Source of the DNA: Vulcanimicrobium alpinum
Lineage (GTDB): Bacteria; Vulcanimicrobiota; Vulcanimicrobiia; Vulcanimicrobiales; Vulcanimicrobiaceae
DNA: 64,000 nt
NCBI RefSeq assembly: GCF_027923555.1
Contig: NZ_AP025523.1
Span: 2,236,484-2,300,483 of the forward strand
Direction of reading: 5' to 3'
The position numbers and the translations under genes were made by a program. The notes below the pieces were generated by a model. The model had not been told where the DNA came from and made no database searches. It worked only from the letters and a program-made list of their open reading frames with translations. Within the stretch, counting starts at the first letter, position 1, and each line of letters begins with the position of its first letter. Shown here one piece after another: positions 7,516 to 24,985 of the stretch.

Positions 7516-8378
7516 GCCCGCTGCTCGCCAATCCGTATACGCTAGCGCTCGGGGGCGCGGCGTCCACCTTCCTCATCGTGCTGTCGACGATTCCGACGCC
7601 CAGCTCGATGGCGAACCGTCTCAACAAGCTGGAAAAGGTCAAAGAGAAAGACCTTTTCCAGCGCAACATGATCATCCAGCAGATCGTCACCAAAGAGCGG
7701 CAGACGCAGACGAAGCAGCGGCTCGTCGAAGCCGGCTGGTACAACCTCTCGCCGACGCAGATGACGATCCGCGGCATGGGCGCGCTGGGTTTGGGAACGG
7801 TCGTCGGCATCGCGCTGTGGCTGCTCGCCGGCAACTCGGTCCTCGGCATCATGCTGGGTCTGTTCACGGCGCTGGTCGCGTGGCGTCTCCCGTCGTTCTT
7901 GCTCTCGCGCGCGATAAAGAAGCGCAAAGAAGAGATTAGCCGCGAACTCCCCGACTTTCTCGACCTGCTCTCGACGACCGTCGAAGCCGGACTCGCGCTC
8001 AACGCTGCGCTGATCCAAGCAACCGAGGCCGCACAAGGATCGCTGAAGGCCGAGCTGCAGTCGACGCTCTCCGAAATCAAGCTCGGCCGATCGCGTGCCG
8101 ACGCGCTCACGGCGATGGCCGACCGTGTCAACGAACAAAGCGTCACCACGATGGTGACGGCGGTCGTACAGGCCGAGAAGCTCGGTTCGAATCTCACCGT
8201 CGTCCTACAGGAACTCGCGAAAGATACGCGCGACCGCCGCTGGATGCTCGCCGAAGAGACGGCCGCGAAGCTGCCGATCAAGATGATCATCCCGATGGCG
8301 CTGTTCATGATCCCGTCGCTGTACCTGATGATCTTCGGCCCGGTCATCGCGCAAACGGTCACCAACTGGGGCAAATGA
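7512..8378 (+). CDS. tadC: Tad pilus inner-membrane platform protein TadC
   Basis: 288 aa, paralogous to TadB. Its T2SSF domain includes ELPDFLDLLSTTVEAGLALNAAL, then MVTAVVQAEKLGSNL and LAKDTRDRRWMLAEE. Membrane segments lie near residues 15-30, 95-125 and at the C-terminus. The ATG overlaps the tadB stop (ATGA). It is the expected partner of TadB, in the standard order A-B-C. Confidence 0.9.
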   Translation: MSPLLANPYTLALGGAASTFLIVLSTIPTPSSMANRLNKLEKVKEKDLFQRNMIIQQIVTKERQTQTKQRLVEAGWYNLSPTQMTIRGMGALGLGTVVGIALWLLAGNSVLGIMLGLFTALVAWRLPSFLLSRAIKKRKEEISRELPDFLDLLSTTVEAGLALNAALIQATEAAQGSLKAELQSTLSEIKLGRSRADALTAMADRVNEQSVTTMVTAVVQAEKLGSNLTVVLQELAKDTRDRRWMLAEETAAKLPIKMIIPMALFMIPSLYLMIFGPVIAQTVTNWGK

Positions 8379-8989
8379 TCGCCTCGGTCGCCGCCCTCTT
8401 CACCGCAATCGCCTTCGGCGTCGCGGGGTGGCTGGGTTCTGGGCTCGGCGTGGCCTTGTGCCGCGACATCGTCGCGCACGACGACGGTCCGCGCCCGGTC
8501 GCGTTTCCGGCCTGGCCGTTCCCGGTTGCGGGTGCGGCGGTCGGGCTCGCCGCGCAATTGCACGGCGCCAGCGCCACGCACCTCGCGATGCTGTTCGTGG
8601 TCGTCGCGGCGCTGGCCGCGTGCGCCGCGTCGGATCTGCGCTGCGGGATGATCCCGGATGTCTGCAGTCTCGGCGCGCTCGCGCTCGTCCTCGGTTTCGC
8701 CGCGTTCGAACGCAACTGGGGATCGCTGCTCGGCGCCGGAGTCGTGTTCGTCCCGTTCGCCGGCGCGGCGCTCGTCTCGCGCGGACGCGGGATGGGCTGG
8801 GGCGACGTGAAGATCGCCTGCCTCGGCGGCGCGCTGCTCGGCGGCCCGGATGCGACGCTGGCGTTCATCCTCGCGTCGCTGGCGGCCTACATCATCGCGC
8901 GCAGGTCGGGGGAGCGCCGCCCGATCGCCTTCGGCCCCTACCTGACGGGATCGATCTTTCTCGCGCTCACTTTAGAACGTTCGGTATGA
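8375..8989 (+). CDS. Second A24-family prepilin peptidase-like protein
   Basis: 204 aa polytopic membrane protein. It keeps both A24 catalytic motifs, SDLRCGMIPD (about 87-96) and GMGWGDVK (about 147-154). It is therefore a plausible active aspartate protease, longer than the upstream CpaA and of the GWGD type. It overlaps tadC by 4 bp and the DUF192 gene by 4 bp. Possible roles are processing of TadE/F-type pseudopilins, as a second peptidase does in some Tad systems, or partial redundancy. Its N-terminus lacks the cysteine tetrads of methylating PilD enzymes. Confidence 0.82.
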   Translation: MIASVAALFTAIAFGVAGWLGSGLGVALCRDIVAHDDGPRPVAFPAWPFPVAGAAVGLAAQLHGASATHLAMLFVVVAALAACAASDLRCGMIPDVCSLGALALVLGFAAFERNWGSLLGAGVVFVPFAGAALVSRGRGMGWGDVKIACLGGALLGGPDATLAFILASLAAYIIARRSGERRPIAFGPYLTGSIFLALTLERSV

Positions 8990-9339
8990 GGCACATGGGT
9001 CTGCTCAAAAACGCCAGCACCGGCACGATCATCGCGACGCGCGTCGATCGTGCGGCCAGCTTCCTGCAGCGCGCCGTCGGCCTGCTGGCGCGTCCGAACG
9101 TCCGGCCCGACGAGGGCCTCTGGATCGAGCGCTGCAACGCAATCCACACGATGGCGATGCGCTCGCCGATCGACGTCATCTTCGTCGACGACACAGGCCG
9201 CGTCAAACGCGTCGTCCACCACGTCAAGCCGCACAAGCTCGCCGTGACGTGCTTCTCAGCGAAGGCCGTGATCGAGCTCGGCGCGGGGACCCTCGAAGCC
9301 GAAGACGTGCTCGTCGGGGACCTGCTCGAACTGGTGTAA
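8986..9339 (+). CDS. DUF192 family protein
   Basis: 117 aa. It has the family features: RAVGLLARPNVRPDEGLWIERCNAIHTMAMRSPIDVIFVD, with the conserved L-x-P-x-EG-x-W / C-x-IHT-x-M core, and a C-terminal hydrophobic strand. The biochemical role of DUF192 proteins is unknown. The chosen ATG overlaps the previous stop (ATGA); a second ATG three codons later (8995) is possible. There is no signal peptide, unlike many DUF192 members. Position at the end of the tad operon suggests co-expression. The last 84 bp overlap the oppositely oriented glycosyltransferase gene. Confidence 0.8.
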   Translation: MRHMGLLKNASTGTIIATRVDRAASFLQRAVGLLARPNVRPDEGLWIERCNAIHTMAMRSPIDVIFVDDTGRVKRVVHHVKPHKLAVTCFSAKAVIELGAGTLEAEDVLVGDLLELV

Positions 9340-10464
9340 TCGGCCGCCGCGCAGGCGGATCGCAAGCCACGCAATCGTTCCGCCGACAATGGGTATGGCT
9401 AGCGGATCGATGAACAGGACGGGCGAGAAGAGCGCGGTATCTGCGACGAAATAGACAGCGGAAATAAGTCGCGTTCTAAGGGGCTCGCGTAAATGCGTCG
9501 CGCACCAAGCGATCGCCGGCAGCGCCAAGACGGCGTCATATGCCCATGCGTGAGCGCTGAGCGCGAGACCGGCAAGGCATGCGAAGCTCCCGGCTTCAAG
9601 GTCGCGAGCAGATCGTGATGCGACGGCGGAGGCCACACCGAGCAAAACACAGATCGCCCCAATTAGCCACGGCGCCGCGCCGACACGATTCAAGAGTCCG
9701 GGCAACGCCAATGCCATTGCGGCATTCAGGCGAAAGTCTTGTGCGAAATATTGGTGGACGAGTTGAGCTAGCGTCGTCGGCCACATTGAGTCTCCGCCGG
9801 TCGCCATCACGCTCACCACGTACAGAAGTGCACCGATCGCGGCCGCACTCATCACCTCGCGTAATCGCCCACGGACTGCCAAAACCAGCACGAGCGGCAA
9901 CGCATACGTCGGCTTGTAGAGCAGCAGGCCCAAAGGAAGCGCCGTGCGCAACGGAGCGTTTTCCACCATGCCGGAAATTGTAAGAAGAGAACACAGCAGC
10001 CCGAAGGTTGCATTCTGCCCCGCAACCAGCGCCGCATAAAGGGTAGGCCACCAAGCGAAAACGAGGGCTGTCGCGATCGACTGCGAGATGCGATAGCAGC
10101 GCGCCAGGACAATTGACGAGACTCCGGCGCACAGAACCATAAACGTTGCTTCAATCGCGAACCCGACACTGAGCGGCAGCCTCGAAAGCGGAGCGATCGC
10201 ATAGGCTGCGGCCGGGACGTACAAGAACGCCTGCCACAGCTCGGGCGGATGCAGCAACGCAGGGGTTCCCGCCCGGGATCCGGCGATCGCAAATGCACGC
10301 CAATCCCCGAAGTCATGGTGAATCGTCCACCACACGGGCGCTGCGGCATAGATCGTCAGCAGCGCGGTCCAGAACCAGAACCGGCCGCGTAGGATCCGCA
10401 GCGGCTCGGCGTACACGGGGTCAGCGCGCCGCGACGCGCACCGAACGGACGAGGACTTCTTCAC
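9256..10464 (-). CDS. GT87-like polytopic membrane glycosyltransferase
   Basis: 402 aa with about nine to ten hydrophobic segments. The first extracytoplasmic loop contains DFGDWRAFAIAGSRA, matching the Asp-containing loop of DUF2029/GT87 polyprenol-linked mannosyltransferases. GLLLYKPTYALPLV is another family-like stretch. It probably transfers a sugar from a polyprenyl-phosphate donor outside the inner membrane; the substrate is unknown. A GTG at 10464 gives the longest form; a GTG at 10416, just past the stop of the upstream gene, would remove 16 residues and is equally likely. The C-terminal 27 codons lie antisense to the DUF192 gene. A member of a different GT-C family cannot be excluded. 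Confidence 0.7.
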   Translation of the reverse strand: MKKSSSVRCASRRADPVYAEPLRILRGRFWFWTALLTIYAAAPVWWTIHHDFGDWRAFAIAGSRAGTPALLHPPELWQAFLYVPAAAYAIAPLSRLPLSVGFAIEATFMVLCAGVSSIVLARCYRISQSIATALVFAWWPTLYAALVAGQNATFGLLCSLLTISGMVENAPLRTALPLGLLLYKPTYALPLVLVLAVRGRLREVMSAAAIGALLYVVSVMATGGDSMWPTTLAQLVHQYFAQDFRLNAAMALALPGLLNRVGAAPWLIGAICVLLGVASAVASRSARDLEAGSFACLAGLALSAHAWAYDAVLALPAIAWCATHLREPLRTRLISAVYFVADTALFSPVLFIDPLAIPIVGGTIAWLAIRLRGGRLHQFEQVPDEHVFGFEGPRAELDHGLR

Positions 10465-11872: not shown

Positions 11873-13329
11873 GCCGTCTGCAGGGCAGCCGTGATCTTCC
11901 GCAACGGCAAACCGCGGCGCTCATACGTGCGCGCGGCATCGAGATCTCGCATTTGCGTGAACAGTTCGACGAGGCGGTCGAGCACCATTCCGAAACGCGC
12001 CATGTATTCGCGGACGTGCGGCGCGAGGACCGGTTCGACGGCTTCGGAGGCCAGCAGATGGTCGGTGTAGAGGCGTTCGGCGGCCGCGTAGTGGCGGCGC
12101 GCGCTCTCGAGCTCGCCGCGCCGCTCTTCCATCGCGCCGTACTCGACGTGTTCGGAGAACCGGCGCGCGTCGACGGTCGCATTCTCGAGGTTGATCGAGA
12201 TCGTCGCGTCGATCTGGAGGAACCGTTCGGCCTCGCAGCCCGCCGCGTCGGCGATCGAGCGGCGCAGGCGGCTGAGCGACGTGCGCAGGCCCTGCATCGC
12301 GACTGCCTGCGGCACGTCGGGCCAGAACGCGGCGATCAGTTCCTGGCGCGTGACGCGCGCATCGGGGGAGAGCGCGACGCACACCAGCACGTTCTGGTCG
12401 CGCCGGCGGGCGAACACGACGTGACGGTCGCCGACGCGGCACGCGAAACGGCCCAGCAGGTTGAGCGCGAGCGGCTGCGAGGTTTCCGGCTCGGCGCGTC
12501 GGCTCTTCACCAGCGACCGGGTCGCGAGCCGGCGCAGGATGCGGTACGGACGAAGCGAGCCGCGCACGTCTGCGACCGGACATCCGGCGGCGGCGAGCTC
12601 GGCCAGCACCGGCTGGGTGCATTGCGCGCGATCCCGGAGCGCGGCGAGGAACGCATCGCGCATCCCGGTGTCGCGCGAGCAGTGCTCGGCGACGAATTCG
12701 ATGAGCAGCGGCCCGTAGCGCGACGACCAGCGCTCGAACGCGTCGCGCATCCGTCGCGTGTCTTCGGTCGCGCTGCGCAAGATCCATGTGAGCGGGAGCG
12801 TCCAGCCTTCGGTGACGTGCAGCAGCTCGGCCAAGTCTTTGGCGTCGTAGGTCAGGCCGAGGCGGTCAGCGAGCTGCTGCGTCTCCGCGAGATCGAAGGC
12901 GAGATCGGTGCGATCGATGACGCTGCCGAACCCGCGCGCGACGATGTTCTGCGCGCGCAGGAGTCGGCACGAACGGCTCGAGACGATCAGGCGCGGCGCA
13001 TGCGGCGCGCAGGAGACGACCGCCTTGAGCAGTTCGTCGATGGCGGCGGGAAGCGCGAGGTCGAGATCGTCGATGATCAGTTGCGAGTTCGTCGGAACGC
13101 TCGCGACGATCCGCTCCAGTTCCGCGATCGTCATCCCGGGGCGCGCGGCGACGTACTCGGTCCGGGGGTAGGCCGCGGCATACTGCAGCAGCGCGGTCGT
13201 CTTGCCGGAACCGGCAGGCGCGCACACAAACCGTACCGGACGATCGGCGCGAGATTCCAACGCAAGAAAAACCCGCTCGCGTTCGATCGCCGCCGGATCA
13301 AGAACCACACTTCCGTGTTTCGACGGCAT
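11869..13329 (-). CDS. ATPase-BTAD (SARP-like) transcriptional regulator
   Basis: 486 aa. Residues 15-280 form a STAND/MalT-like NTPase: Walker A CAPAGSGKTTALLQYA, Walker B LIIDDLDLAL and a sensor-like LIVSSRS. The C-terminal half has a winged-helix OmpR-type domain (LNLLGRFACRVG, RVTRQELIAAFWPD) followed by an alpha-helical bacterial transcriptional activation domain. This order, ATPase then DNA-binding then BTAD, is the reverse of classical SARPs and resembles MalT-related activators. The start at 13329 has GGAG 8 nt upstream; an extension to 13386 is rejected as Arg-rich and without a ribosome site. Targets are unknown; the neighbouring secondary-metabolism-like operon is one candidate. 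Confidence 0.8.
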   Translation of the reverse strand: MPSKHGSVVLDPAAIERERVFLALESRADRPVRFVCAPAGSGKTTALLQYAAAYPRTEYVAARPGMTIAELERIVASVPTNSQLIIDDLDLALPAAIDELLKAVVSCAPHAPRLIVSSRSCRLLRAQNIVARGFGSVIDRTDLAFDLAETQQLADRLGLTYDAKDLAELLHVTEGWTLPLTWILRSATEDTRRMRDAFERWSSRYGPLLIEFVAEHCSRDTGMRDAFLAALRDRAQCTQPVLAELAAAGCPVADVRGSLRPYRILRRLATRSLVKSRRAEPETSQPLALNLLGRFACRVGDRHVVFARRRDQNVLVCVALSPDARVTRQELIAAFWPDVPQAVAMQGLRTSLSRLRRSIADAAGCEAERFLQIDATISINLENATVDARRFSEHVEYGAMEERRGELESARRHYAAAERLYTDHLLASEAVEPVLAPHVREYMARFGMVLDRLVELFTQMRDLDAARTYERRGLPLRKITAALQTA

Positions 13330-13671
13330 GCTGGACTCCAACGGTCGTCGGCGCGGCCTCCAAACAGGACGCCGCCTGCCGTACAAACACTATCGGCCGA
13401 AGCCGACGAAAATTCTTGCCGTCGTTACCAACAAAAGACACGGAGCAACCGGCCACACGGCCAAGGTACAGCAATCGAGCAAGCGATCTTTCGGCTGTTG
13501 TCAGAGCGACAACAAGCCGATAACCACGGGCTTTGGGGCTCGTCGACCACGCGACGGCACGCGCCGTCGCAACGGTAATGGTACGTCTCGAAATCACCAT
13601 ATCACAATGCGGTGAAGAGCGACGCTGCTCACATCGCGGCGGCGATGCCGCTCACACTTCCTCCTGCGCAC
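13330..13671. other. 342-bp intergenic region with two inverted repeats
   Basis: It lies between the end of the attH-like gene and the start of the BTAD regulator gene, both on the minus strand, so it should hold the terminator of one and the promoter of the other. It is visibly less G+C-rich than its flanks. Two hairpins are seen: GTTGTC-AGAGC-GACAAC flanked by CGGCT/AGCCG with one bulged base (13492-13519), and the perfect 8-bp GCGACGGC-ACGC-GCCGTCGC (13551-13570). Neither is followed by a T-tract. The first could be an operator and the second a factor-assisted terminator. No coding frame in it looks real. Confidence 0.6.
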
Positions 13672-14769
13672 TCACAGGGAGATCGCGCCCGCATAACCGG
13701 TCAACTCGACATAACCGACGCCGAGAGGCCGGCCGCTGGCACGATCAGTGACGTCGACGGCACCTTCCCAATACGACACGCCGCCGACCGTGTTCGCCAG
13801 CTCCTGGTCGGCCAGCACCGGCGTCAGCATCACGTCGAGGCCGGCGGAGGGCACCTGCAGTCGCCAGCCGCTGGGATAGACCGCGCCCGTATGGGGGCTC
13901 TTCCAGGTGCCGGTGGCGTCGACGGAGACGGCGTCGCGCGCAAGGTAGCGCACCGCGCCGCGCGGGTCGATCAGCGATCCGCTCGACTCCGGGGTCAGCG
14001 TCCCGGCCTTCGTCCGCAGACGGTAGTCCATCAGTTCGCGGCGGTCGTCGAGCTGGAGCGAAAACCAGTCCCAGCCGGCCTGATCCGCCTGCAGTTGATC
14101 GGAACCGAACTCGTGGTCCATCCACGAAATGCCGTCGACGCGGAGCGTCGCGCCGCCGTACCGCAGCGTCCCCTCGGTGCGCAGCCGCGTCATCGAGTAG
14201 TAATGCGACGCGCACGTCGCGCACGCCGCCTTCAGCGAGACGCCGTCGCGGCCGTGGATCGCCGGCGGCTTCTGCGCCGTCTGCGTGAGGTCGAGCCCGA
14301 CCTCGTTCGATAGCGCGTGCATTCGGAACGGACCGTTGCCGCGCAGCCACCAGCCGTTGACGGCGACGTCGAGCCGGCGCGTCGACGCGTGCCCCATTCC
14401 CAGCGCCTCGCGCGCAAACCGCTCGTCGTAGACGAAACGGCGTCCCACCTCGTCGGTGAGCGCGAGGTGCGCCGGATAGACTTGGTTGCCGCGCCAGCGC
14501 GATTGTAACGGCGACGGAGGCGGATCGCCGGGCCGCAGACCGTAGCGGAAAAACGTCAGTTCGTAGCCGAAACGGCGTCCGTCCGCGGCGCGCAGGTGGC
14601 CGGTGTAATACCACCATTCGCTCGCGAAGCCGGGATGCGCGGCATGATCGCGCGGAAACGCGAACCGCCACGGCGAGCGCGCGTTGGAGAATCCGTGCGC
14701 CGCCGGCGGCGCGGCGGCGGTCGTGCACGCGATCAGCAGCGCGCCGCAGATTGCGGCGAGACGTCTCAT
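13672..14769 (-). CDS. AttH/CrtC-like lipocalin-fold protein
   Basis: 365 aa. The start at 14769 opens a signal peptide (MRRLAAICGALLIACTTAAA), and a Cys near residue 15 could be a lipobox, so a lipoprotein is possible. The family motif FPRDHAAHPGFASEWWYYTGHL is followed by FRYGL, ISWMDHEFGSDQL (Asp-His-Glu) and WDWFSLQLDDRRELMDYRLR, all typical of the AttH/CrtC double-lipocalin family. CrtC hydrates carotenoids; AttH members accompany MacB-like ABC transporters and are thought to bind a hydrophobic ligand. The FtsX gene immediately upstream (4-bp overlap) favours the AttH role. Confidence 0.85.
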   Translation of the reverse strand: MRRLAAICGALLIACTTAAAPPAAHGFSNARSPWRFAFPRDHAAHPGFASEWWYYTGHLRAADGRRFGYELTFFRYGLRPGDPPPSPLQSRWRGNQVYPAHLALTDEVGRRFVYDERFAREALGMGHASTRRLDVAVNGWWLRGNGPFRMHALSNEVGLDLTQTAQKPPAIHGRDGVSLKAACATCASHYYSMTRLRTEGTLRYGGATLRVDGISWMDHEFGSDQLQADQAGWDWFSLQLDDRRELMDYRLRTKAGTLTPESSGSLIDPRGAVRYLARDAVSVDATGTWKSPHTGAVYPSGWRLQVPSAGLDVMLTPVLADQELANTVGGVSYWEGAVDVTDRASGRPLGVGYVELTGYAGAISL

Positions 14770-17330
14770 TCCGTGCGCACCGCCTCGGCCGTGCGGATCC
14801 GCGCGGCGACGCCGGCCGGATACACGCCCGCGACGACGGCCGCAGCGACGACGAGCAGGATCGTCGCCGCCAGGAACGCCCCCGGCACGTGCAGCTCGAT
14901 CAGCCACCCGAACGCCTGACGGTTGATGACGAAGATCAGCAGCAGCGCCAGCAGCATCCCCACGCCGACGCCCAGCCCTCCGCCGAGCAATCCGATCCCC
15001 GCCGCTTCGACGAGGACGATGCGGCGCACGCCACCCGTCGAGACGCCCAAGTACCGCAGCAATCCGAACTCGCGGCGCCGTTCGAGCACCAGCGCGAAGA
15101 GCGTCGAGACGACGCCGAGCACGGCGATCGTGATCGCGATGACGTCGAGCGCGTACGTGATCGCGAACGTGCGATCGAAGATCTGCACGACCAAATCGCG
15201 CAGCTCGCGGTTCGTTTCGACGTCGATGCGCAGCGGCGCGACGGAACGCAGAACCGCCGTCCGCAGCCGCGTCAGGTCGGTGCCGGGTTGCGCGTAGATC
15301 GCGATGGAGTTCACCGACGCGTCGTGAAAGAGCCGGCGATACGTGCGCAGGTCGACGACCACGAGGCCCGCGTCGGACGAGTAGTCATTGTACACCGCCG
15401 CGACGGTGAAGCGTGTCGTCCCCGACGGCGTCGGCAGTTCGATCGCGTCGCCTTCGCGCACGCCGAACTTCGAGGCGAACGGCTCGGAGACGAGCACCTG
15501 CGTCGAACCGGGGAGCGAACGCGCGAGCGCGTGCGCGTCGGCGCCGAGCAGACGCAAGGGGTTGCGGCCGTCAAGCGTCGCCAGATCGGTCGCGCCGAGC
15601 GTCGTGAGCCGGCCGCGGAACGGCAGTTCGACACCGCGGAACGTCGCCGCGCTCGCAACGCCGGTAACGTGGCGGATCGTCTCGGCGACGTGCGGCGAGA
15701 ACACCGCGTCGGTCGACGCATCACCCAGCCCCAGCGGCCGCACGAACAGATCGGCTTTGAGCGTCTCGTCGGCCCACGCAACGATCGTCGTGCGGAACGA
15801 TGCGACCAGCACCGCGACCGAGACCATCATCCCGATCGCGATCATCAGCGACGCGATCGCAACCGCGGTGCGCAGCGGCGCGCCGCCGAGATTCGAGGCC
15901 GCGATCGCGATCGTCGGTCGCCGCGCCGCAAGCGATGACCCCAGCCGCGCGACCCCTTCGACGGCGAGCGGCGCGAACAGCGATCCGCCGAAGATGATCA
16001 GCAATCCGGCGGCGTATCCGAAGAGCGGGACGCCGTCGATCGCCGGGACGCGCGTGCACGCGAAGGCGAGCGCGAACGCCGCGATCCCCAACGCCGCGGC
16101 GCGGCGGGCGAGACGCGGACGGCGCCGCTCGAACCCTTGCGCGCGCATCGTGATCGCCGCCGGGGTCGACGCGGCGTCGTAGGCGGGGAACGCCGCCGCG
16201 ACGATCGACGCGATCACGCCCAGGACGAACGCTTTGACGAACAAGAGCGGATCGTATACGACGCGGTCGGCATGCGATGCGACGTAGAGCGTGTCGACGG
16301 TGCGCGAGACCGCCGCGACCGAGAATGTCGCAAGCAGCGCACCGAGCGCGAGACCCAGCAGCGAGCCGAGCACGCCGATCATCGCGCCCTCGGCGATGAA
16401 CGTGCGGAACACCGCGCCGCGCGTCGCGCCGAGTGCGCGCACCGTGCCGACTTCGGGGCGGCGCTGGACGACGGAGATCGCGACCGTGTTGTAGATGAGG
16501 TACATCCCGACCAGCAGCGCGACGTACGCGAGCGCTTCGAGGTTGAGACGGAAGCTGCGCAGCATCCGCGCGATCTCGTCGGTACGCGTCTTGGGTGCGA
16601 CGGCGCGCGTTCCGGGCGGGATCAACGCGGCGACGGCACGCTGCGTCTGCGCGAGGCGCGACGGGTCGACGACGAGATCGATGCGGTCGAGCAGTCCGAT
16701 CTTGCGGAAGAGTTCCTGTGCCGTCGCGATGTCGACGAAGACGACACTCGAATCGATCCCCGCGCTGCCGCGCGGGATGATTCCGGCGATGCGCAGCGTC
16801 ACGTCGCGATCGCCTGCGAGCGCGTGCACCGTCTCCCCGCGGCGCCAGCCGTAACGCGTCGCGACGCGTTCGCTCACGAACGCGCCGTGACCGTTGACGA
16901 GCATCCCCGGATCGGCGTTCTCCTGCGAGACGCTTCCCGGCGACGCCGCGGCCGCCACCGTGTCGCCCGGGAGCGGCCGCAGCAGATCGACGCCGAGCAC
17001 GCGTAGGATCTCGCCGGAGAACGGATCGCCCGCGCGCGCTCCGACGGTCACGGAATCCTCGATCGTCGGGCTGGCGTAATTGATGCCGGGGGCGTTTTGG
17101 ACGCGGACGATCGCGCGCTCGTCGAAACCGCGGCCGACGCCGAGCACCTGCAGGTTGACGCGGTTCGAGACGACGTTGACGCTCGACGCGAACGAGGCGA
17201 CAGCGGTGGCGTTGGCGAGGTCGATCGCCAGCCCGATCGAGACGCCGAGCGCGACGGCGACCAGCGTCACCAGCGCGCGCAGGACGTTGCCGCGGAGCGG
17301 ACCGAGCACGAGGGCACGAAGCAGCGGCAT
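14766..17330 (-). CDS. Double FtsX-domain ABC transporter permease
   Basis: 854 aa with two MacB-like periplasmic domains and two FtsX modules: about residues 240-390 (AYVALLVGMYLIYNTVAISVVQRR) and about 700-850 (FALVLERRREFGLLRYLG). This is an AttF/AttG-type fusion, acting in the inner membrane with the ATPase encoded at 19230-19943. A GTG at 17333 overlaps the preceding stop, but the adjacent ATG at 17330 (TGATG) is preferred. Such transporters extract or export lipoproteins, peptides or hydrophobic compounds. Its ATPase is separated from it by the MNIO genes, which is unusual and suggests that one operon serves both. Confidence 0.85.
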   Translation of the reverse strand: MPLLRALVLGPLRGNVLRALVTLVAVALGVSIGLAIDLANATAVASFASSVNVVSNRVNLQVLGVGRGFDERAIVRVQNAPGINYASPTIEDSVTVGARAGDPFSGEILRVLGVDLLRPLPGDTVAAAASPGSVSQENADPGMLVNGHGAFVSERVATRYGWRRGETVHALAGDRDVTLRIAGIIPRGSAGIDSSVVFVDIATAQELFRKIGLLDRIDLVVDPSRLAQTQRAVAALIPPGTRAVAPKTRTDEIARMLRSFRLNLEALAYVALLVGMYLIYNTVAISVVQRRPEVGTVRALGATRGAVFRTFIAEGAMIGVLGSLLGLALGALLATFSVAAVSRTVDTLYVASHADRVVYDPLLFVKAFVLGVIASIVAAAFPAYDAASTPAAITMRAQGFERRRPRLARRAAALGIAAFALAFACTRVPAIDGVPLFGYAAGLLIIFGGSLFAPLAVEGVARLGSSLAARRPTIAIAASNLGGAPLRTAVAIASLMIAIGMMVSVAVLVASFRTTIVAWADETLKADLFVRPLGLGDASTDAVFSPHVAETIRHVTGVASAATFRGVELPFRGRLTTLGATDLATLDGRNPLRLLGADAHALARSLPGSTQVLVSEPFASKFGVREGDAIELPTPSGTTRFTVAAVYNDYSSDAGLVVVDLRTYRRLFHDASVNSIAIYAQPGTDLTRLRTAVLRSVAPLRIDVETNRELRDLVVQIFDRTFAITYALDVIAITIAVLGVVSTLFALVLERRREFGLLRYLGVSTGGVRRIVLVEAAGIGLLGGGLGVGVGMLLALLLIFVINRQAFGWLIELHVPGAFLAATILLVVAAAVVAGVYPAGVAARIRTAEAVRTE

Positions 17331-17737
17331 CACCGGAATTGGACGACGTGCAGGCGCCCCGTGCGCCGCAACCGCATCAAAAGCGTCAGCCCACGGCCGG
17401 TGCGCACCAGCGCGAAGCCTGCGCGCGGCCCGCGCATCGCCAACAGTGCGGCCTCCCGTCGCGACTCGCGCATGCGCAGCGAACGCGCGAACGCGACCGC
17501 TTCGGCGCGGTACTCCCCGGCGCCGGCCGGCGCGCGTCCGGCGGAAAAAGCGCGGTAGCGCGCTTCGAATTCCGCCCGGCCGAGCGACGCCAGCGTCGCC
17601 GGAAGCAGTGCCCGCAGGGCGTCGAGCCGCTTGCGCACCGCCTGCGCGACGAACGCGTCCAGCGCCGCCGGTGCGATCGCGGATGCGACCCGTTCGCCGC
17701 GGACGGCCGCGGCTAGAGCGCGCTCGTACGCGATCAT
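17330..17737 (-). CDS. MNIO partner protein (DUF2063/BufC-like)
   Basis: 135 aa. The N-terminal half has the pattern of the DUF2063-type partner domain: RKRLDALRALLPATLASLG, then AEFEARYRAFSAGRAP and EYRAEAVAFARSL, which parallels the helix that contains the conserved FP-x2-x2-LG and YP motifs. The remainder is short and basic. In known MNIO systems this protein recognises the precursor peptide and presents it to the enzyme. It overlaps the MNIO gene by 4 bp (ATGA), as partner genes usually do. It is shorter than typical partners (about 250 aa), so part of the C-terminal domain appears to be missing. Confidence 0.7.
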   Translation of the reverse strand: MIAYERALAAAVRGERVASAIAPAALDAFVAQAVRKRLDALRALLPATLASLGRAEFEARYRAFSAGRAPAGAGEYRAEAVAFARSLRMRESRREAALLAMRGPRAGFALVRTGRGLTLLMRLRRTGRLHVVQFR

Positions 17738-18531
17738 GCCGCCGCCGCGCGCGCGGCGTCGAGTTCGTCGAGGAGGTTCGACAATGGCGGAAGCGCCGCT
17801 TCGCGTTCGAGCAGGGTCAGCGGCGGGACGCAGCGCCGGCAGAACGCGCGGCACAGCGCCCACGTGCGTTCCGGGACCGGCCCGTCGTGCGCGTCGACGT
17901 ATCCGTCGCGGGTGCGCCGTCCGCCGGCGAGGTGGACTTCGCAGACGCGCTCGGCCGGGATCGCGGCGACGACCGCGCCGGCGTCGGTGCCGACGTTCCA
18001 CGCATCGGCATGCAGATTTTCCAAATCGAGGATCAATTCGCAGTCCGCCGCGGCCGCGATGCGCGCGAGGTACGCCGCCGCATCGAGCGTGTCGGAGGGC
18101 ACCAGGAAGGCCGTCGCCGGATTCTCGAGCGCGAAGCGCCCCGGAACCGCATCCCGCACCGCCGCGACGTTGCGCGCCACGATCGCGACGGTCTCTTCGG
18201 TACGCGAAAGCGGCGCGAACGCGCCGAGTTCCACGCCGCAGGCGTGGGTCATCGCGAGATGATCGCTCCACCACAGCGGACGCACGTAGTCGACGAGCGC
18301 CGCGATCCGTGCGAGATACCGTCCGTCGACGCCGTCGCTGCTGCCGATCGACGTGGCCAGCGCGTGCACCGTGACGTCGAAATGCGCGCGCAGCACGTCG
18401 AGTTCGTCGCGCTGTTCGGCCGTGAGATCGAGGAAGTGTTCCGCGACGATCTCGAGGACGTCGACCTGCGCGCTGTGCGCGAAGAGCGCGGCCCGGTGTT
18501 CCGCGCGGTAGAGCACGCCGAAGCGGCTCAC
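17734..18531 (-). CDS. DUF692 multinuclear non-heme iron oxidase (MNIO), BufB/MbnB-like
   Basis: 265 aa TIM-barrel protein with the expected metal-binding positions: VHALATSIG (His56), WWSDHLAM (Asp90, His91), ALENPAT (Glu136, Asn137), LDLENLHADAWN (Asp169, Asn172, His174), CEVHLAGG (Glu198, His200) and DAHDGPVPE (His215, Asp216, Glu221). Members studied so far modify cysteines in ribosomal peptides, for example to oxazolone-thioamide or thiooxazole. The GTG start at 18531 overlaps the stop of a Cys/Gly-rich protein (GTGA), which makes that protein the obvious candidate substrate. The enzyme is followed by its partner gene. The modification chemistry cannot be inferred from the sequence. Confidence 0.88.
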   Translation of the reverse strand: MSRFGVLYRAEHRAALFAHSAQVDVLEIVAEHFLDLTAEQRDELDVLRAHFDVTVHALATSIGSSDGVDGRYLARIAALVDYVRPLWWSDHLAMTHACGVELGAFAPLSRTEETVAIVARNVAAVRDAVPGRFALENPATAFLVPSDTLDAAAYLARIAAAADCELILDLENLHADAWNVGTDAGAVVAAIPAERVCEVHLAGGRRTRDGYVDAHDGPVPERTWALCRAFCRRCVPPLTLLEREAALPPLSNLLDELDAARAAAA

Positions 18532-19188
18532 CCGCCGCCGCTGCAGCCGCCGCCGCCGCACCCGCCGTGGCCTCCGCAGCCTCCGTGTCCGCCGCCGCGG
18601 CCGTCGCCGCCGTGCCCGCCATCACCGCCGCCGGACTCTGCGTACGGAACCCCGCATCCGCCGCATCCCCCGGTGCTTCCGCCGCCGTCAATCCCGGCGG
18701 GGCGAGCGGTCGCGTCGGCGAAGCGCGTCCCAGCCATCGCCGCCGGACCGTGCAGCGCAAACGCGAGCGTCGGGTCGGCGGCGGCGATCTGCGCGGCGGG
18801 AAAGGCGATCGCTGCGGTGCGGAGCCAGGCGTCGCCGCGGCTCGTGCGGCGTCCGGTCAGCCATCGCACCGGCGAGCGATCGCGCAGGTAGCCGGCGGCG
18901 ATCATCCGGCTTTCCAGTTCGCGCGCGGCCTGCGTGCCCGCACTCCTCCCGCCTCACGCGCACGCTTCCAACTGACATACGGCCCGGGGGTGAGCGTTGC
19001 GACGATCGCGCGCCCGAACGGCTCGCCGGCGGCGGCCGGATCACCGAGCCGCAGCATCCCCCCTCGTAGACGAGTGCCCCTGTTGCGACGGCTTGCAAGA
19101 TCGCTGCGTCCAGCGCCGCGCCGAGACCCGCGCGCACGAAAGCGGCCTCGATCGGATCGATCGGGGCCGCGAGCGGTTCCACGTTCAT
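18528..19188 (-). pseudogene. TIGR04222-like membrane/Cys-Gly-rich precursor gene, split by two frameshifts
   Basis: Three reading frames join into one about 220-aa protein. Frame 1 starts at ATG 19188 (MNVEPLAAPIDPIEAAF) and is lost at the six-base G run at 19058-19063. Frame 2 carries GMLRLGDPAAAGEPFGRAIV to about 18940. Frame 3 carries AARELESRMIAAGYLRD and a tail very rich in Gly and Cys (five Cys in GGCGG, HGGCGG and GGGGCSGGG contexts). One extra G at each junction restores the frame. The layout resembles TIGR04222 proteins: helical domain, then a low-complexity Cys/Gly tail. It is the likely MNIO substrate. It may be a real pseudogene or a sequencing artefact. Confidence 0.7.
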
Positions 19189-19229
19189 GCATCCGACTCT
19201 ACCGTACCGCCGCGGAAAAGTCGCAGCGG

Positions 19230-19943
19230 TCAGCGCCCCGCGGGCACCATCGCCCCGTCGCGCATGTGCACCACGCGATCGCACATCGCCGCCGCGTCGT
19301 CGCTGTGCGTGGCCATCACGATCGCCTGCCCGCTGTCGGCCAACCCGCGCAAGAGGCGCAGCACCAGCGCGCCGGTGTGCGAGTCGAGGTTTCCGGTCGG
19401 CTCGTCGGCGAGAAGGACGGCCGGGCGGTGCACGATCGCGCGCGCGATCGCGACCCGCTGCATCTGCCCGCCCGAGAGCTGCGCCGGAAACGCGCGCGCC
19501 TTCTCCGCCAGCCCGACGCTTGCGAGCGCGGCCGCGACGCGGCCGTCGATCTCGCCGCGCGGTACGCGCTGCAGCACCAGCGGCAGCGCGACGTTGTCGG
19601 CGACGCGCAGCGCGGGCAGCAGGTTGAAAAATTGGAAGACCGTGCCGACGCGGTCGCGCCGCAGGCGCGTGAGCGCGTCGTCGTCGAGGGCGCCGGTCGC
19701 GGTGCCGTCGATCGCGACGGTCCCGCCCGTCGGCAGATCGACGCAGCCGATCACGTTGAGCAGCGTCGACTTTCCGCAGCCGCTCGGCCCCACCAGCGCG
19801 ACCATCTCGCCGCGGCGCACGTCGAGCGAAACGCCCGTGAGGGCGTGCACTTCCTCGTCGCCGGAACCGTACGTCTTCGTCACGTCGCGCACCGCGACGG
19901 GGAGGACGGCGCTCGCTGCGGCCCGCGCTCCTTCAGCCGTCAT
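19230..19943 (-). CDS. ABC transporter ATPase, MacB/LolD/AttE-like
   Basis: 237 aa nucleotide-binding subunit. Walker A is VGPSGCGKSTLLN (about 47-59), the Q-loop is VGTVFQFFNLLP, the signature is LSGGQMQRVAIARA, Walker B is VLLADEPTGNLDS and the H-loop is MATHSDD. FQFFNLLP and the DEPTGNLD pair are typical of the MacB/LolD class, which pairs with FtsX permeases. The ATG lies inside the end of the ketosynthase gene (11-bp overlap), so export and synthesis genes are translationally linked. The expected permease is the double FtsX protein encoded 1.9 kb downstream. Confidence 0.88.
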   Translation of the reverse strand: MTAEGARAAASAVLPVAVRDVTKTYGSGDEEVHALTGVSLDVRRGEMVALVGPSGCGKSTLLNVIGCVDLPTGGTVAIDGTATGALDDDALTRLRRDRVGTVFQFFNLLPALRVADNVALPLVLQRVPRGEIDGRVAAALASVGLAEKARAFPAQLSGGQMQRVAIARAIVHRPAVLLADEPTGNLDSHTGALVLRLLRGLADSGQAIVMATHSDDAAAMCDRVVHMRDGAMVPAGR

Positions 19944-21177
19944 CGTCGAGACGCCGGAAGACCAGGGCGGCGTTGATCCCGCCGAATCCGGCCGAGTTGG
20001 AGAGAACGGTGCGGAGGCGGCGTTCGAGGCGGGTTCGGGTGAGGGCGAGGTTGCAGGCGGGATCGGCATCGTCGGTATTGACGCTCCGCGGCACGGTTTG
20101 GTGCACGAGCGCAAGGAGCGAGAGCGCGGCTTCCCATGCGCCGGTCGCGCCCAGCGCGTGCCCGTGCTGCCCCTTCGTCGCCGTGACGGGGACGCTCGCG
20201 GCGCGCTCCCCGAAGAGCGTTTCCAGCGCGACCGTCTCGCAGCGGTCGCCCAGCGGCGTCCCGCTGCCATGGGCGTTGACGAGGTCGACGTCGGCGGGCG
20301 CTGCGTGCGCCTCGTCGAGCGCGCGGCGCATCGCGTCCGCGTTCATCGCGCCGTCCGGCCGCGGCGCGGACATGTGGTAGGCATCGTTGGTGAGGCCGTA
20401 CCCGGCGATCTCGCCGTACACGCGCGCACCGCGCGCGCGGGCATCGGCGAGCCGCTCCAGCAGCAGCACGCCCGCGCCCTCCGCCATCACGAAGCCGTCG
20501 CGTCCGCGATCGAACGGCCGGCTCGCGGCCTGCGGTGCGTCGTTGCGCTCCGACATCGCGCGGATCACGGTGAACGCGCCGAAGACCAGCGGCGAGAGCG
20601 GGGCTTCGACGCCGCCGGCGAGCGCGGCGCGCACGTCGCCGCGTGTGATCGCGCGGAACGCGTCGCCGATCGCGACCGCGCCCGACGCGCAGGAGTTGCC
20701 GTTCGCCACCGTCGGCCCGCGCAGACCGAACTCGATCGCGACGTTGCACGTCGCAGCACCGCCGAAGACCGAGATCGCGAGCAGCGGCTTCACCGCGTCG
20801 AGCCCGCGTTCGCGGAAGACGTCGTGCTGCTCGTCGGCGAACGCCAAGCCGCCCAGCGCCGACCCGAGATAGACGCCGACGTCGCCGGACGCCGCGCTCG
20901 CGTTGTAGCCGGCGTCCTCGAGCGCCAGCCTGGCCGCGGCGATCGAGAACTGCGAGAAGCGATCGGTCCAGTTGAGCCGCTTCGCCGTCAGAAATGCGCG
21001 CGGCTCGAACGCGTCGATCTGCGCGGCGATCCGCGTGCGGTAGCCGGCGGTGTCGAATCGCGTGATCGGCGCGACCGCAACGCGTTCGCTGAGCACGCCT
21101 TCCCAGAACGCGTCGATCCCGATCCCGAGCGGCGTCACGACGCCGATCCCCGTCACCGCGACGCGATGCGCGGTCAT
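19933..21177 (-). CDS. Beta-ketoacyl-ACP synthase II-like ketosynthase
   Basis: 414 aa FabF-fold condensing enzyme. The catalytic residues are present: Cys163 in ANGNSCASGAVAIGDA, His303 in VNAHGSGTPLGD, Lys335 and His340 in KGQHGHALGATG. The nucleophile context NSCASG differs from the usual TACA(S/T)G, pointing to a specialised enzyme rather than primary FabF. No acyl carrier protein or chain-length factor gene is nearby. It overlaps the cyclase gene by 4 bp and the ABC ATPase gene by 11 bp. It probably extends an acyl or aromatic precursor; substrate and product are unknown. Confidence 0.87.
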   Translation of the reverse strand: MTAHRVAVTGIGVVTPLGIGIDAFWEGVLSERVAVAPITRFDTAGYRTRIAAQIDAFEPRAFLTAKRLNWTDRFSQFSIAAARLALEDAGYNASAASGDVGVYLGSALGGLAFADEQHDVFRERGLDAVKPLLAISVFGGAATCNVAIEFGLRGPTVANGNSCASGAVAIGDAFRAITRGDVRAALAGGVEAPLSPLVFGAFTVIRAMSERNDAPQAASRPFDRGRDGFVMAEGAGVLLLERLADARARGARVYGEIAGYGLTNDAYHMSAPRPDGAMNADAMRRALDEAHAAPADVDLVNAHGSGTPLGDRCETVALETLFGERAASVPVTATKGQHGHALGATGAWEAALSLLALVHQTVPRSVNTDDADPACNLALTRTRLERRLRTVLSNSAGFGGINAALVFRRLDDDG

Positions 21178-21626
21178 CGCGCCGCCGCGGCTTCGGCGAG
21201 TTCCTTGACGCGCGCCAGCGTCTTCGCCGCGACGCCGTGGATGAAATAGCCGGAGACGACATGGCGGCCGATCCACTCCGGCGCGACGGGAAACGCGAAG
21301 GCGAGTCGGTGCTCGATCGTCACCCGCGTCCCGCCCGCGAGCGGTTCGAAGATCCACTCGACGTCCATCCCGCGCGTCCAGCCGCGCAGGTGGTGGAACG
21401 CGATGTGCGGCGTGCGCGGATCGTTCGTCTGCCTCGCGACCCATCGCACCGGGAAGATGTCGCGCCACGCGCTCATCGCGACGGTGCGCGTGTCGCCGCG
21501 TTCCTCGAGCACGCGGACGTAACGATAGTGCGGCAGCACCTCGGGCCAGCGCGGCGTGTCCGCGCCGAGCCGGTAGACGACGTCGACCGGCGCCGCGATC
21601 TCGATCGCGTTGCGCGTGATCGTCAC
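21174..21626 (-). CDS. SRPBCC-family polyketide cyclase/aromatase-like protein
   Basis: 150 aa START/SRPBCC-fold protein. It begins EIAAPVDVVYRLGADTPRWPEVLPHYRYVRVLEE, the classical first helix and strand of polyketide cyclases (VY-x4-D-x2-RW-P), followed by the beta-sheet EWIFEPLAGGTRVTIEH and the long C-terminal helix VKELAEAAAA. The start is a GTG at 21626 (GTGA overlap with the oxidoreductase gene). In type II polyketide clusters such proteins guide ring closure; here that role is inferred from the ketosynthase next door. Other SRPBCC members bind lipids. Confidence 0.82.
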   Translation of the reverse strand: MTITRNAIEIAAPVDVVYRLGADTPRWPEVLPHYRYVRVLEERGDTRTVAMSAWRDIFPVRWVARQTNDPRTPHIAFHHLRGWTRGMDVEWIFEPLAGGTRVTIEHRLAFAFPVAPEWIGRHVVSGYFIHGVAAKTLARVKELAEAAAAR

Positions 21627-22795
21627 GCCAGCAGACGTCCCAGGACGTCGAGACGGAACGCGCGCTCGGGCGGAATCGCGCCGGCGAGCGCTTCGAGCAG
21701 CGTCGTCCCGGCGCCGGGGAACCGCGCGAGACGCGACGCGGCGCGGCGCGCGAGCGGCGAGACGTCGATGAGCAGCGCGACGGATCGGCACAGCCGCCGG
21801 CGCCACGCGAGATCGGCGGTGCGCCAGCGCGCGTAGCCGGCGTACGCCTGCGATGCGCGCATCGGCGTCTCGAACGCCGCCAGGATCGCAGCCGCGGCGC
21901 GCTCGGCGCCGATGAGCGCAAGGAAAACGCCCTGTCCGGTGAACGGGTCGAGAAATCCGGCGGCATCGCCGACGAGCACCGCTCCCGGCGCGACCGGCGC
22001 GCGCACCGCGTGCGCGAGCGGCCCGACCGAGACGCGCGCGCCGACGCGTGACGCTTCGGCGAACGAGCGCGCGCCGCGTCCGAGCGCGGCGGCCGCACCG
22101 CCCATCCCGGCGTCGACGTCGGCCGACCAGCGCGCGAGCCGTTCTTTCGGCACGACGACCATCACGTTCGCGCGTTCGGCGTCGAGCGGGTTGATCGCGA
22201 AGTACGCGCCGCCTCCGACGTACATCTCGACGCAGCCGTCGAGCGTTCCGAAGCCGCGATAGTGCCCGCCGACCGCGTAGCGCCCGCGCTTCGATCTGGC
22301 CGTGAGCCCGAGTTTGCGCGCGACGACCGAACCGCTGCCGTCGGCGCCGACGACGACGCGCGCGTGCCGGTCGGCGAGCGTTCCGTCGTCGGTGCGCACG
22401 CGGACGCCCACGCAGCGCGCGCCGTCCCGAATGAGGTCGTCGACGCGTGCGCGCTCGAGCGTCGCACCGGCGGCGAGCGCGGCGTCGAGCAGAAGCGCGT
22501 CGAGTCCTTCGCGCGCGCACGCGAGTGCCGGACGCGGAAAGGGCAACACGACCGGGGGCGCGCCTTCGGGGACGAGCCGCACGCCGCGCAGCGCGTGCGC
22601 GCGTCCGCGCACCGCGTCGAGGACGCCGAGCCGGTCGAGCGCGTCGACCGCGCCGCCGTTGAGATACTCCCCGCAGACTTTGCGGCGCGGAAACTGCGCG
22701 CGCTCGACGATCGTCACGTCGATCCCCGCGCGCGCGAGCAGCAGCGCGGTCGCGCTCCCCGCCGGTCCGGCGCCGACGACGACGACGTCGCTCAC
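21623..22795 (-). CDS. FAD-dependent oxidoreductase, geranylgeranyl-reductase family
   Basis: 390 aa flavoprotein. The dinucleotide fold is at the N-terminus (VVVVGAGPAGSATALLLARAG), RKVCGEYL is the family-typical stretch after the first sheet, VVVGADGSGSVVARKLG is the second motif and GAVLVGDAAGFLDPFTGQGV is the GD motif that contacts FAD. It resembles hydroxylase/reductase enzymes often found beside polyketide and isoprenoid genes. The GTG start overlaps the methyltransferase stop (GTGA). It probably oxidises or reduces the ketosynthase product. Confidence 0.87.
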   Translation of the reverse strand: MSDVVVVGAGPAGSATALLLARAGIDVTIVERAQFPRRKVCGEYLNGGAVDALDRLGVLDAVRGRAHALRGVRLVPEGAPPVVLPFPRPALACAREGLDALLLDAALAAGATLERARVDDLIRDGARCVGVRVRTDDGTLADRHARVVVGADGSGSVVARKLGLTARSKRGRYAVGGHYRGFGTLDGCVEMYVGGGAYFAINPLDAERANVMVVVPKERLARWSADVDAGMGGAAAALGRGARSFAEASRVGARVSVGPLAHAVRAPVAPGAVLVGDAAGFLDPFTGQGVFLALIGAERAAAAILAAFETPMRASQAYAGYARWRTADLAWRRRLCRSVALLIDVSPLARRAASRLARFPGAGTTLLEALAGAIPPERAFRLDVLGRLLA

Positions 22796-23463
22796 GCCGC
22801 GTCCCAGAGCGTCATCCGGAAAAACGGTTCGCCGCGCACCGAGGCGGCGCGCCAGCCGGCGGCGCGCGCCAGCGCGAGCGCTTCGCCCGGCGTGTACGCG
22901 CGGCGTACCGAAAGCGGCGCGTCGTGACGCGTGAGCCGGTTGCGCGAGGTGCGCGACCACAGCCACGTCATTCCGAACGCGAGCGGCGAGCGGCGCAGGT
23001 CGCAAACGACCGGGCTCAGGCGCGAAACCCGGCGCAGTTCGCGCAGCAGCCGGTGCGCGCCGTCGGGTTCGAAGTGATGCAGCGCGAGCGTGCACGTCAC
23101 GACGTCGAACGCGCCGTCCGCAAAGGGGAGCGCGTCACCGTCCGCCCGCACGAATGCCAGCGAAGGATGGCGGCACGTGCGCGCTTGCGCGATCGCGAGC
23201 ATCTGGTCGCTGCGATCCAGGCACGTCACGTGAAGTTCGACGCCGCGGCGCTCGGCGTCGCGCACCAGCGCCAGCGGAACGTCTGCCGCGCCGCTTCCGA
23301 CGTCGAGGACGCTGCGCGCGCCCAGGCCGCGTACGGTGCGCACGACCGGCGCGCTGCCGCCGAAGACGGCGTTCGCGAACGCGATGTCGCGCAGGTTGCC
23401 TTCGAGCTCGGCGACGTCGTCGACCGGATCGTCCATCAGCTCGCGAGCGATCGTCCGCCGCAC
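22792..23463 (-). CDS. Class I SAM-dependent methyltransferase
   Basis: 223 aa. Motif I is SVLDVGSGAADVPLAL (about 51-66), with LHVTCLDRSDQML for the acidic ribose-binding residue and FDVVTCTLALHHFE for motif IV. The N-terminal MDDPVDDVAELEGNLRDI region resembles methyltransferases that accompany type III polyketide synthases. It is the first gene of the apparent operon running to 13672. The start is a GTG at 23463; an ATG at 23436 would remove nine residues. It is likely to methylate an oxygen or carbon of the cluster product. Confidence 0.85.
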   Translation of the reverse strand: MRRTIARELMDDPVDDVAELEGNLRDIAFANAVFGGSAPVVRTVRGLGARSVLDVGSGAADVPLALVRDAERRGVELHVTCLDRSDQMLAIAQARTCRHPSLAFVRADGDALPFADGAFDVVTCTLALHHFEPDGAHRLLRELRRVSRLSPVVCDLRRSPLAFGMTWLWSRTSRNRLTRHDAPLSVRRAYTPGEALALARAAGWRAASVRGEPFFRMTLWDAA

Positions 23464-23484
23464 GCGAGCCTCAGCCCGTCCGGG

Positions 23485-23727
23485 TTATTTCTTGTACCAC
23501 TCCGCGTTGATCGCGATGAAGTTCTTCCACTTCTCGGGGACGTCGGAGTCGGCGTAGATTGCCTCGACGGGGCAGGCGGAGACGCAAGCGCCGCAATCGA
23601 TGCACACTTCGGGATCGATGAAGAGCTGAGTGTCGTCGTCGTTACCGTGGATGCAATCGACCGGACAGACGTCGACGCACGACTTGTCCTTGGTGCCGAT
23701 GCAGGGTTCGGTAATGATGTAGGCCAT
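23485..23727 (-). CDS. Seven/eight-iron ferredoxin
   Basis: 80 aa electron carrier. The pattern is CIGTKDKSCVDVCPVDCI, then CIDCGACVSACPVEAIY: the first cluster site has the long spacing between its first two cysteines typical of 3Fe-4S/4Fe-4S ferredoxins (FdxA type), the second is a normal CxxCxxCxxxCP site. The tail VPEKWKNFIAINAEWYKK is also typical of FdxA. It ends 21 bp before the methyltransferase start and could be co-transcribed with the operon. It could then supply electrons to its oxidases; a purely housekeeping role is equally possible. Confidence 0.9.
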   Translation of the reverse strand: MAYIITEPCIGTKDKSCVDVCPVDCIHGNDDDTQLFIDPEVCIDCGACVSACPVEAIYADSDVPEKWKNFIAINAEWYKK

Positions 23728-23874
23728 CGCGGGGAGGGGGTTGCGCGGGAGAGGGGACGGCTCCTACCGACAAAAGGCGGAAGCTCCGCGACGCAAACGA
23801 CGAAGAGCGCCCGTCCGAGAGGACGAGCGCCGATGTCGCCGCAGAGGGCGTTTCGCGAACCGTTGTCGCGCGGA

Positions 23875-24138
23875 TCAGTGGGTGGCGCGACGGCCGGTGA
23901 CGGCGCGGATGATGAACAGCAGGATCACTGCGCCGACGAACGCGACCAGGATGCTCCAGATGTTCAGGCCGGTGGCACCGGTGTGGCCGAACGCGTTGAA
24001 GACCCAGCCGCCGATGAAGGCGCCGATGATACCGATGATGATGTCGCCGAGGATCCCGCCGGGGCCCTCACCGGGCACGACGTACTTCGCGAGGAACCCT
24101 GCGATCAGACCCACGATCAGCCAGGCTAGAATGCTCAT
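23875..24138 (-). CDS. GlsB/YeaQ/YmgE-family small membrane protein
   Basis: 87 aa with three hydrophobic segments and the family glycine-rich motifs LIVGLIAGFLAKYVVPGEGPGGILGDIIIGIIGAFIGGW. Members are often stress-induced; the name transglycosylase-associated is historical and no activity is proven. A possible ribosome site AAGGGA lies about 12 nt upstream. It is a single gene, divergent from the SIMPL gene. Confidence 0.85.
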   Translation of the reverse strand: MSILAWLIVGLIAGFLAKYVVPGEGPGGILGDIIIGIIGAFIGGWVFNAFGHTGATGLNIWSILVAFVGAVILLFIIRAVTGRRATH

Positions 24139-24265
24139 TTGGTGGTGTGTCCCTTTCCGGTGTCTTGGAGTGCGGCGCACCGCCGCGATGGCCCTTAAGA
24201 CCTTCCCTGGAAGGTGGCCCACGAAACGGTCACGGAACAGCCGCCCGTTTCGTTGTGTAGGTACG

Positions 24266-24985
24266 ATGAAGAGCCGATTTTTGATCGCCGCGGCCGTCGC
24301 GACGCTGGCAGCCATAGGCCCCGCGGGCGCGCAGACGGCGCCGCCCGGGCCGCGCGCCGCGACGATCGTCGTGGGAGGCCAAGGCAGCGTCGATCGGGCG
24401 CCGGATCGTGCGGTCGTGACGCTCGCGGTCGTCACCGACGACCCCGTTGCGGCGAAAGCGACGTCGGCGAACAACGCCGCCTACGGCGCGGTCGTCGCGA
24501 AGATCGCCGCGCTCGGCATCCCGCAGTCGGCGATCAAGACGACGTCGTTCAACCTGAACTACAATCCGCGTCCGCCGCAGCCGAACCCGCAGTTCGGCCA
24601 GCGTTACGGGTACGTCGTGAGCCGCGACATGACCGTGACGACCGATCGCGTGGAGCAGGCCGGCGCGATCGTCGACGCGGGAGTCGCCGGCGGCGCGACC
24701 GGCGTGAACGCGGTCGGCTTCACGCTGCGCGATCAGCGCGGCGCGTATCGCGCTGCGCAGGCGCTCGCCGTCGCAGACGCCGACGCGCAGGCGCGCGCGC
24801 TCGCCGAGGCAGCGCACGTGCGCATCGTGCGGATCGCGCGCATCGACGCCGCGCCGGGCGGCGTCACGCCCCGCCCTGTCCCGTTCGCCGCGCGCATGGC
24901 CGTTGGGCCGGTTCCCACCGAGATTCCGGCCAGCGACCTCACCGTCACCGCCACGGTCGACGTCACGTACCAGATCGCTCCCTGA
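24266..24985 (+). CDS. SIMPL (DUF541) domain periplasmic protein
   Basis: 239 aa. The ATG at 24266 opens a signal peptide ending GPAGAQ. The SIMPL domain covers the rest: ATIVVGGQGSVDRAPDRAVVTLAVVTD, IPQSAIKTTSFNLNY, and the C-terminal DLTVTATVDVTYQI strand. Family members are periplasmic or surface proteins of uncertain function that may protect against oxidative stress. An intact frame continues upstream to 23741 but lacks a signal and a good start. A 43-bp gap separates it from the Clp-like gene. Confidence 0.87.
   Translation: MKSRFLIAAAVATLAAIGPAGAQTAPPGPRAATIVVGGQGSVDRAPDRAVVTLAVVTDDPVAAKATSANNAAYGAVVAKIAALGIPQSAIKTTSFNLNYNPRPPQPNPQFGQRYGYVVSRDMTVTTDRVEQAGAIVDAGVAGGATGVNAVGFTLRDQRGAYRAAQALAVADADAQARALAEAAHVRIVRIARIDAAPGGVTPRPVPFAARMAVGPVPTEIPASDLTVTATVDVTYQIAP

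Follow-up and report, generated by a model that had tools for sequence, protein, structure and literature searches.

The window, i.e. the whole stretch of 64,000 nucleotides of Vulcanimicrobium alpinum that was analysed, carries on its minus strand a cassette consisting of a precursor gene, an MNIO (DUF692) enzyme and a short PME-type-2 partner, which belongs to a recently described kind of system. On sequence comparison the precursor of this genus appears to be a TIGR04222 descendant that has lost its transmembrane segments, and it should therefore be a soluble cytosolic protein. The reading preferred here, at a probability of roughly 0.6, is that this protein would be the substrate of the enzyme and that the cysteines of its Gly/Cys-rich tail would be oxidised into metal-binding groups. 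The window's own precursor gene is probably a decayed (or mis-sequenced) copy.

The MNIO enzyme and its partner

Along the minus strand the order is ABC transporter ATPase (19230..19943), precursor region (18528..19188), MNIO (17734..18531), partner (17330..17737), FtsX-type ABC permease (14766..17330) and a CrtC/Lipocalin_9 (AttH-like) protein (13672..14769), the ATPase, permease and lipocalin-type genes being those of a host operon. From the precursor tail onward the genes are joined by stop/start overlaps: the TGA of the tail overlaps the GTG start of the MNIO gene (GTGA), the latter overlaps the partner gene in ATGA, and the partner stop overlaps the permease start in TGATG. The preliminary description had proposed an MNIO enzyme with a partner and a Gly/Cys-rich-tailed neighbour on whose stop codon the enzyme starts, and the overlap is confirmed, while gene order, profile matches and predicted structure bear out the roles of enzyme and partner. 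A search around the cassette for promoters, for terminators and for Rfam elements (the last over 13000-24500) found none.

The MNIO enzyme matches PF05114 (MbnB_TglH_ChrH) with E=3.1e-69 and 233.6 bits against a cut-off of 25. The iron ligands of TglH are His71, His107, Glu151, Asp184, Asn187, His216, Asp229, His231 and Glu258 (PMC10880893), and all nine aligned residues of the window enzyme are identical (H56, H91, E136, D169, N172, H200, D213, H215 and E242), so that the earlier statement that the metal-binding residues are kept holds in full. The closest NCBIfam model is that of the bufferin maturase, MNIO_BufB, yet the score of 203.4 bits lies under its cut-off of 310; since the enzyme falls below every NCBIfam equivalog cut-off, its chemistry cannot be read from sequence.

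The 135-residue partner had been described as DUF2063-like. Its DUF2063 profile match (E=0.004, 17.8 bits) is below the cut-off of 27.2 bits, and the likeness stands at the level of predicted fold: the model (pLDDT 88.5) matches TglI (8hi7, Z 8.6), NGO1945/DUF2063 (3dee, 6.8) and MbnC (5.5), and the top six structural chains are all MNIO partners (Z 8.6-5.4), the next unrelated chain scoring 3.9. Sequence searches of PDB chains with the partner and precursor profiles returned nothing meaningful. Antoine et al. 2025 (PMC12452194) define PME-type 2 by the MNIO-partner fold in the absence of a Pfam DUF2063 match, and the combination found here fits this definition; on its modelled fold the third gene, which comes directly after that of the MNIO, is thus a true MNIO partner of this type. 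The nine iron ligands and the partner fold are common to TglHI, MbnBC and the window cassette, but the precursor, unlike those of the TglHI and MbnBC systems, is a folded protein of ~220 residues with several cysteines and not a short peptide. Unlike in bufferin systems (BufA/BufB/BufC), the precursors of the window and of another member of the genus, G007, have no hydrophobic N-terminal signal, and the partner is short and not of PME-type 1.

A genome-contig scan that used the MNIO alignment turned up 58 loci, and 38 of them were inspected. A TIGR04222-like gene is present in 35 of these and a short partner in 36, and the trio is found in about 35 of the 38, from nine phyla (Eremiobacterota, Cyanobacteriota, Planctomycetota, Pseudomonadota, Armatimonadota, Acidobacteriota, Myxococcota, Verrucomicrobiota and Bacteroidota). 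The association of TIGR04222 with MNIO has been reported, at least 10% of such clusters having a PME-type 2, and TIGR04222 membrane proteins have been proposed as MNIO substrates (Antoine et al. 2025, PMC12452194); the idea that an MNIO may act on a membrane protein is accordingly in print already and not new here. Weak TIGR04222 matches in G008 and G010 gave no precursor match in the local check. Three verrucomicrobial loci (L150, L154 and L156) have an MNIO and a short partner without a TIGR04222-like gene, and in L150 and L156 a protein of ~400 residues precedes the MNIO, possibly a different substrate. G007 has, in addition to its cassette, a second MNIO of a different subfamily (L037, G007:C11, about 6078-9735). 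With the neighbouring genes for a 260-residue partner-like protein, a methyltransferase-like protein and a B12/radical SAM-type enzyme it makes up a candidate RiPP cluster of its own.

A TIGR04222 descendant and its broken gene

Kinship of the precursor with TIGR04222 proteins, suggested in the preliminary description, is upheld by a profile of the relatives and not by the family model itself. The TIGR04222 (near_uncomplex) NCBIfam model (cut-off 43 bits) is matched by 34 of the 35 aligned precursors, the sole exception being the G007 protein; no window ORF, no protein of the window's own genome (which gave one chance-level match elsewhere only) and not the G007 homologue exceeds the cut-off. 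A profile of the 34 relatives, built without the G007 protein, recovers that protein with E=1.5e-12 and finds the read-through window product with E=1.3e-4 (both at fixed Z, 10,000 sequences), and the lineage thus carries a TIGR04222 derivative without clear transmembrane segments. DUF2207_C (Pfam) is also matched by 31 of the 35 precursors (best E=7.8e-11; alignment including L036, L099 and L110-L163), so that TIGR04222 and the C-terminal part of DUF2207 appear to be related.

The membrane anchor proposed earlier is not borne out in either protein of the genus. Judged by hydropathy and an apparent-free-energy sum, the best membrane-segment score is 5.2 for the window product and 8.1 for the G007 protein versus -4.2 to +0.3 for the 34 relatives; the window composite has at most a borderline segment (KD 1.69, score 5.2) and the G007 protein none. 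A hydrophobic N-terminal segment is absent from both N-termini (MNVEPLAAPIDP... in the window, MEHTLSASIDP... in G007). In the alignment the window/G007 form has neither the first segment nor the central hairpin; what it retains is the tail, the DPxExAxxR domain and the R-x-x-x-R-G loop. The intact form without membrane segments is found in one genome, G007, the copy in G003 being cut by a contig end. In G007 the precursor gene occupies L036:10318-10992, that of the MNIO 9440-10321 and that of the partner 9021-9443.

The tail of the window protein (GGGSTGGCGGCGVPYAESGGGDGGHGGDGRGGGHGGCGGHGGCGGGGCSGGG, 18531..18686) has five cysteines and three histidines in 52 Gly-rich residues, and as described earlier it is real and runs into the MNIO start. 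Among the 67 called genes of the window the tail ORF alone combines four or more Cys with a Gly content of 40% or higher over the last 55 residues, and since similar tails recur beside MNIO genes in relatives it is not a chance product of GC-rich sequence. Precursors beside an MNIO but without tail cysteines, which would have spoken against the earlier reading, did not turn up: within the window's phylum the Cys tail is present in 10 of 10 precursors with an adjacent MNIO versus 2 of 7 TIGR04222-like genes without one (Fisher p=0.003, uncorrected for kinship and with the window's own copy among the ten).

The preliminary description had taken the precursor as a single continuous protein, overlooking two frame breaks. 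The region 18528-19188 is not one reading frame: its longest tail-bearing ORF, which covers the last part of the precursor domain plus the Gly/Cys/His tail, has 125 residues (18528..18905, ATG at 18905), and the N-terminal homology goes on upstream of it, first in another frame (MLRLGDPAAAGEPFGRAIVATLTPGPYVSWKRAREAG) and further up in yet another (MNVEPLAAPIDPIEAAFVRAGLGAALDAAILQAVATGALVYEG). This remainder of the gene (18906..19188, MNVEPLAAPIDPIEAAFVRAG...) corresponds by homology to roughly residues 1-90 of the G007 protein, an intact 224-residue homologue encoded in one unbroken frame at the same place; used as query, the G007 protein gives separate matches to the window pieces. Codon scores read frame by frame switch from one frame to the next near 19066 and 18938. 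Each break shifts the frame by -1; the first falls on a six-G run of the coding strand (19058..19063), which reads G_GGG_GGA and has the phase expected of a -1 slippery site, and the second, placed approximately at 18938..18957, has no slippery heptamer. Joined read-through sequences, in which an X marks either break, served for searches alone.

Since the N-terminal domain is disrupted by two single-base breaks but MNIO, partner and tail are intact, the copy is probably decaying or mis-sequenced. Recent decay is favoured, with sequencing or assembly error a close rival, somewhat less probable, by which the window would encode an intact soluble precursor of ~219 residues like that of G007. Both shifts are those expected from one missing base each, the first falls exactly on a six-G run, no other run of this kind in the window is close to a coding break, and third-position bias relative to G007 is kept in the outer segments of the gene. 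However, three further G6 runs (4661, 37797 and 42002) lie within intact genes, the second break lies outside any long run, and no further broken gene was seen among the called genes of the window, so that two errors within one 660-base gene would be unlucky. For the preferred reading of the cassette, the third-position bias of the outer segments and that of MNIO and partner count in favour, and the scant bias of the middle segment (0.51/0.40/0.54) counts against. A naturally split or recoded gene seems improbable: the ATG of the 125-residue ORF does overlap the stop of the preceding frame (ATGA, 18902-18905), which would allow coupling, and the first break has a slippery-type heptamer in the correct phase, but the G007 homologue is in one frame, the second break has no slippery site and no Rfam element was found in the range searched.

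The cassette shares with the TIGR04222 systems (Antoine et al. 2025, PMC12452194) the order precursor - MNIO - short partner, the Gly/Cys tail, a homologous N-terminal domain, the lack of a Sec signal and a partner fold without the Pfam DUF2063 signature. It differs from them in that the window and G007 proteins have no clear transmembrane segments and fall below the TIGR04222 HMM, their tails are predicted to be cytosolic and not periplasmic and contain 3-4 histidines versus 0-1 in relatives, the gene is broken in the window, and the cassette lies within an ABC operon.

Proposed chemistry and its alternatives

With its membrane segments lost the precursor would be soluble and cytosolic, its folded N-terminal domain serving as a large leader in front of the flexible Gly/Cys/His tail. 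The partner would dock the enzyme onto the precursor. With O2, the iron centre would oxidise the cysteines of the tail; thiooxazole- or oxazolone/thioamide-type groups are the likeliest products by analogy with bufferins and methanobactins, and a metal-binding, probably copper-binding, protein would result. The fold of the leader offers a lead only. In the G007 model (pLDDT 78, tail disordered) the domain best matches GOLPH3/Vps74 (Z 7.8-6.9, rmsd 4.5-5.6, 141-155 aligned residues; next unrelated 4.0), and GPP34 is its best Pfam family (E=0.003-0.0055, 18.1 bits, below the 29.1 cut-off); the read-through window product gives no GPP34 match, hhalign of the precursor domain against GPP34 (only three GPP34 sequences) gives a probability of 0.3%, i.e. 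no match, and most membrane-segment-bearing relatives match DUF2207_C instead. The likeness to GOLPH3 is no more than suggestive. A more speculative extension, doubtful as it stands, is that a membrane-bound MNIO substrate became soluble in this genus, with a GOLPH3-like leader and a tail turned into a metal-binding polymer that would be kept in or exported from the cytosol.

Gly/Cys/His tails can bind metal unmodified. The tail could therefore be a metallothionein-like metal-binding segment while the MNIO acts on another substrate, and two orphan TIGR04222-like genes with seven-Cys tails (L179 in G122:C10 and L180 in G140:C134) with no MNIO within the few kilobases read speak for this; their genomes carry MNIO genes elsewhere. 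This explanation is judged quite unlikely, in that the precursor adjoins or overlaps MNIO and partner in nearly all loci and the Cys-poor TIGR04222-like genes have no MNIO beside them. Of somewhat better standing, but still unlikely, is a functional role of the cassette within the ABC/CrtC operon, whose transporter would export or use the cassette's product. The cassette lies between ATPase and permease in the window (G000), G007 and G017, its translation being coupled to that of the permease, and the same slot in G032 has a Cys-less TIGR04222-like gene and an MntP-like gene. Yet ATPase and permease are adjacent without a cassette in most relatives, among them G006, whose permease is 80% identical; G003 has the cassette but no permease, and the cassette is elsewhere in G025, G051 and G047; the transporter as a part of the cassette is weakened by these genomes with either part alone. 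Oxidation of the tail cysteines of a soluble substrate is the reading retained. TIGR04222 membrane proteins are awkward to test as candidate MNIO substrates, and in their case a cytosolic enzyme would have to act on a tail for which a periplasmic location is predicted. A test would be simple with the natural, presumably soluble relative in G007, which comes with an MNIO and a short partner of its own; the window genome is a cautionary case, its precursor gene being broken as sequenced.

The host ABC-transporter operon

The ABC-transporter operon around the cassette is conserved, and in most cases it is found without a cassette. A close homologue of the permease is present in 27 of 60 searched genomes, and ATPase and permease are adjacent in most of the 20 loci read. 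In G003 the cassette adjoins homologues of genes that lie beside the window operon. In the MNIO tree the three in-operon enzymes and that of G003 group together (93/88), with a long branch (1.1) leading to the window's genus, and the simplest account would be one insertion followed by rearrangement and losses.

The host operon is part of a conserved operon-like row (13672-23727) that encodes a ferredoxin, a methyltransferase, a geranylgeranyl-reductase-like FAD enzyme, an SRPBCC protein, a ketoacyl synthase, the ABC ATPase, the FtsX permease and the CrtC/AttH-like lipocalin; some relatives have ferredoxin, ATPase, permease and lipocalin only. The occupant of the ATPase/permease slot in G032 (L099, 4786-6034) is a TIGR04222/DUF2207_C-like membrane protein, and its gene, with no MNIO at the locus, is followed by that of a homologue of MntP-type manganese efflux pumps.
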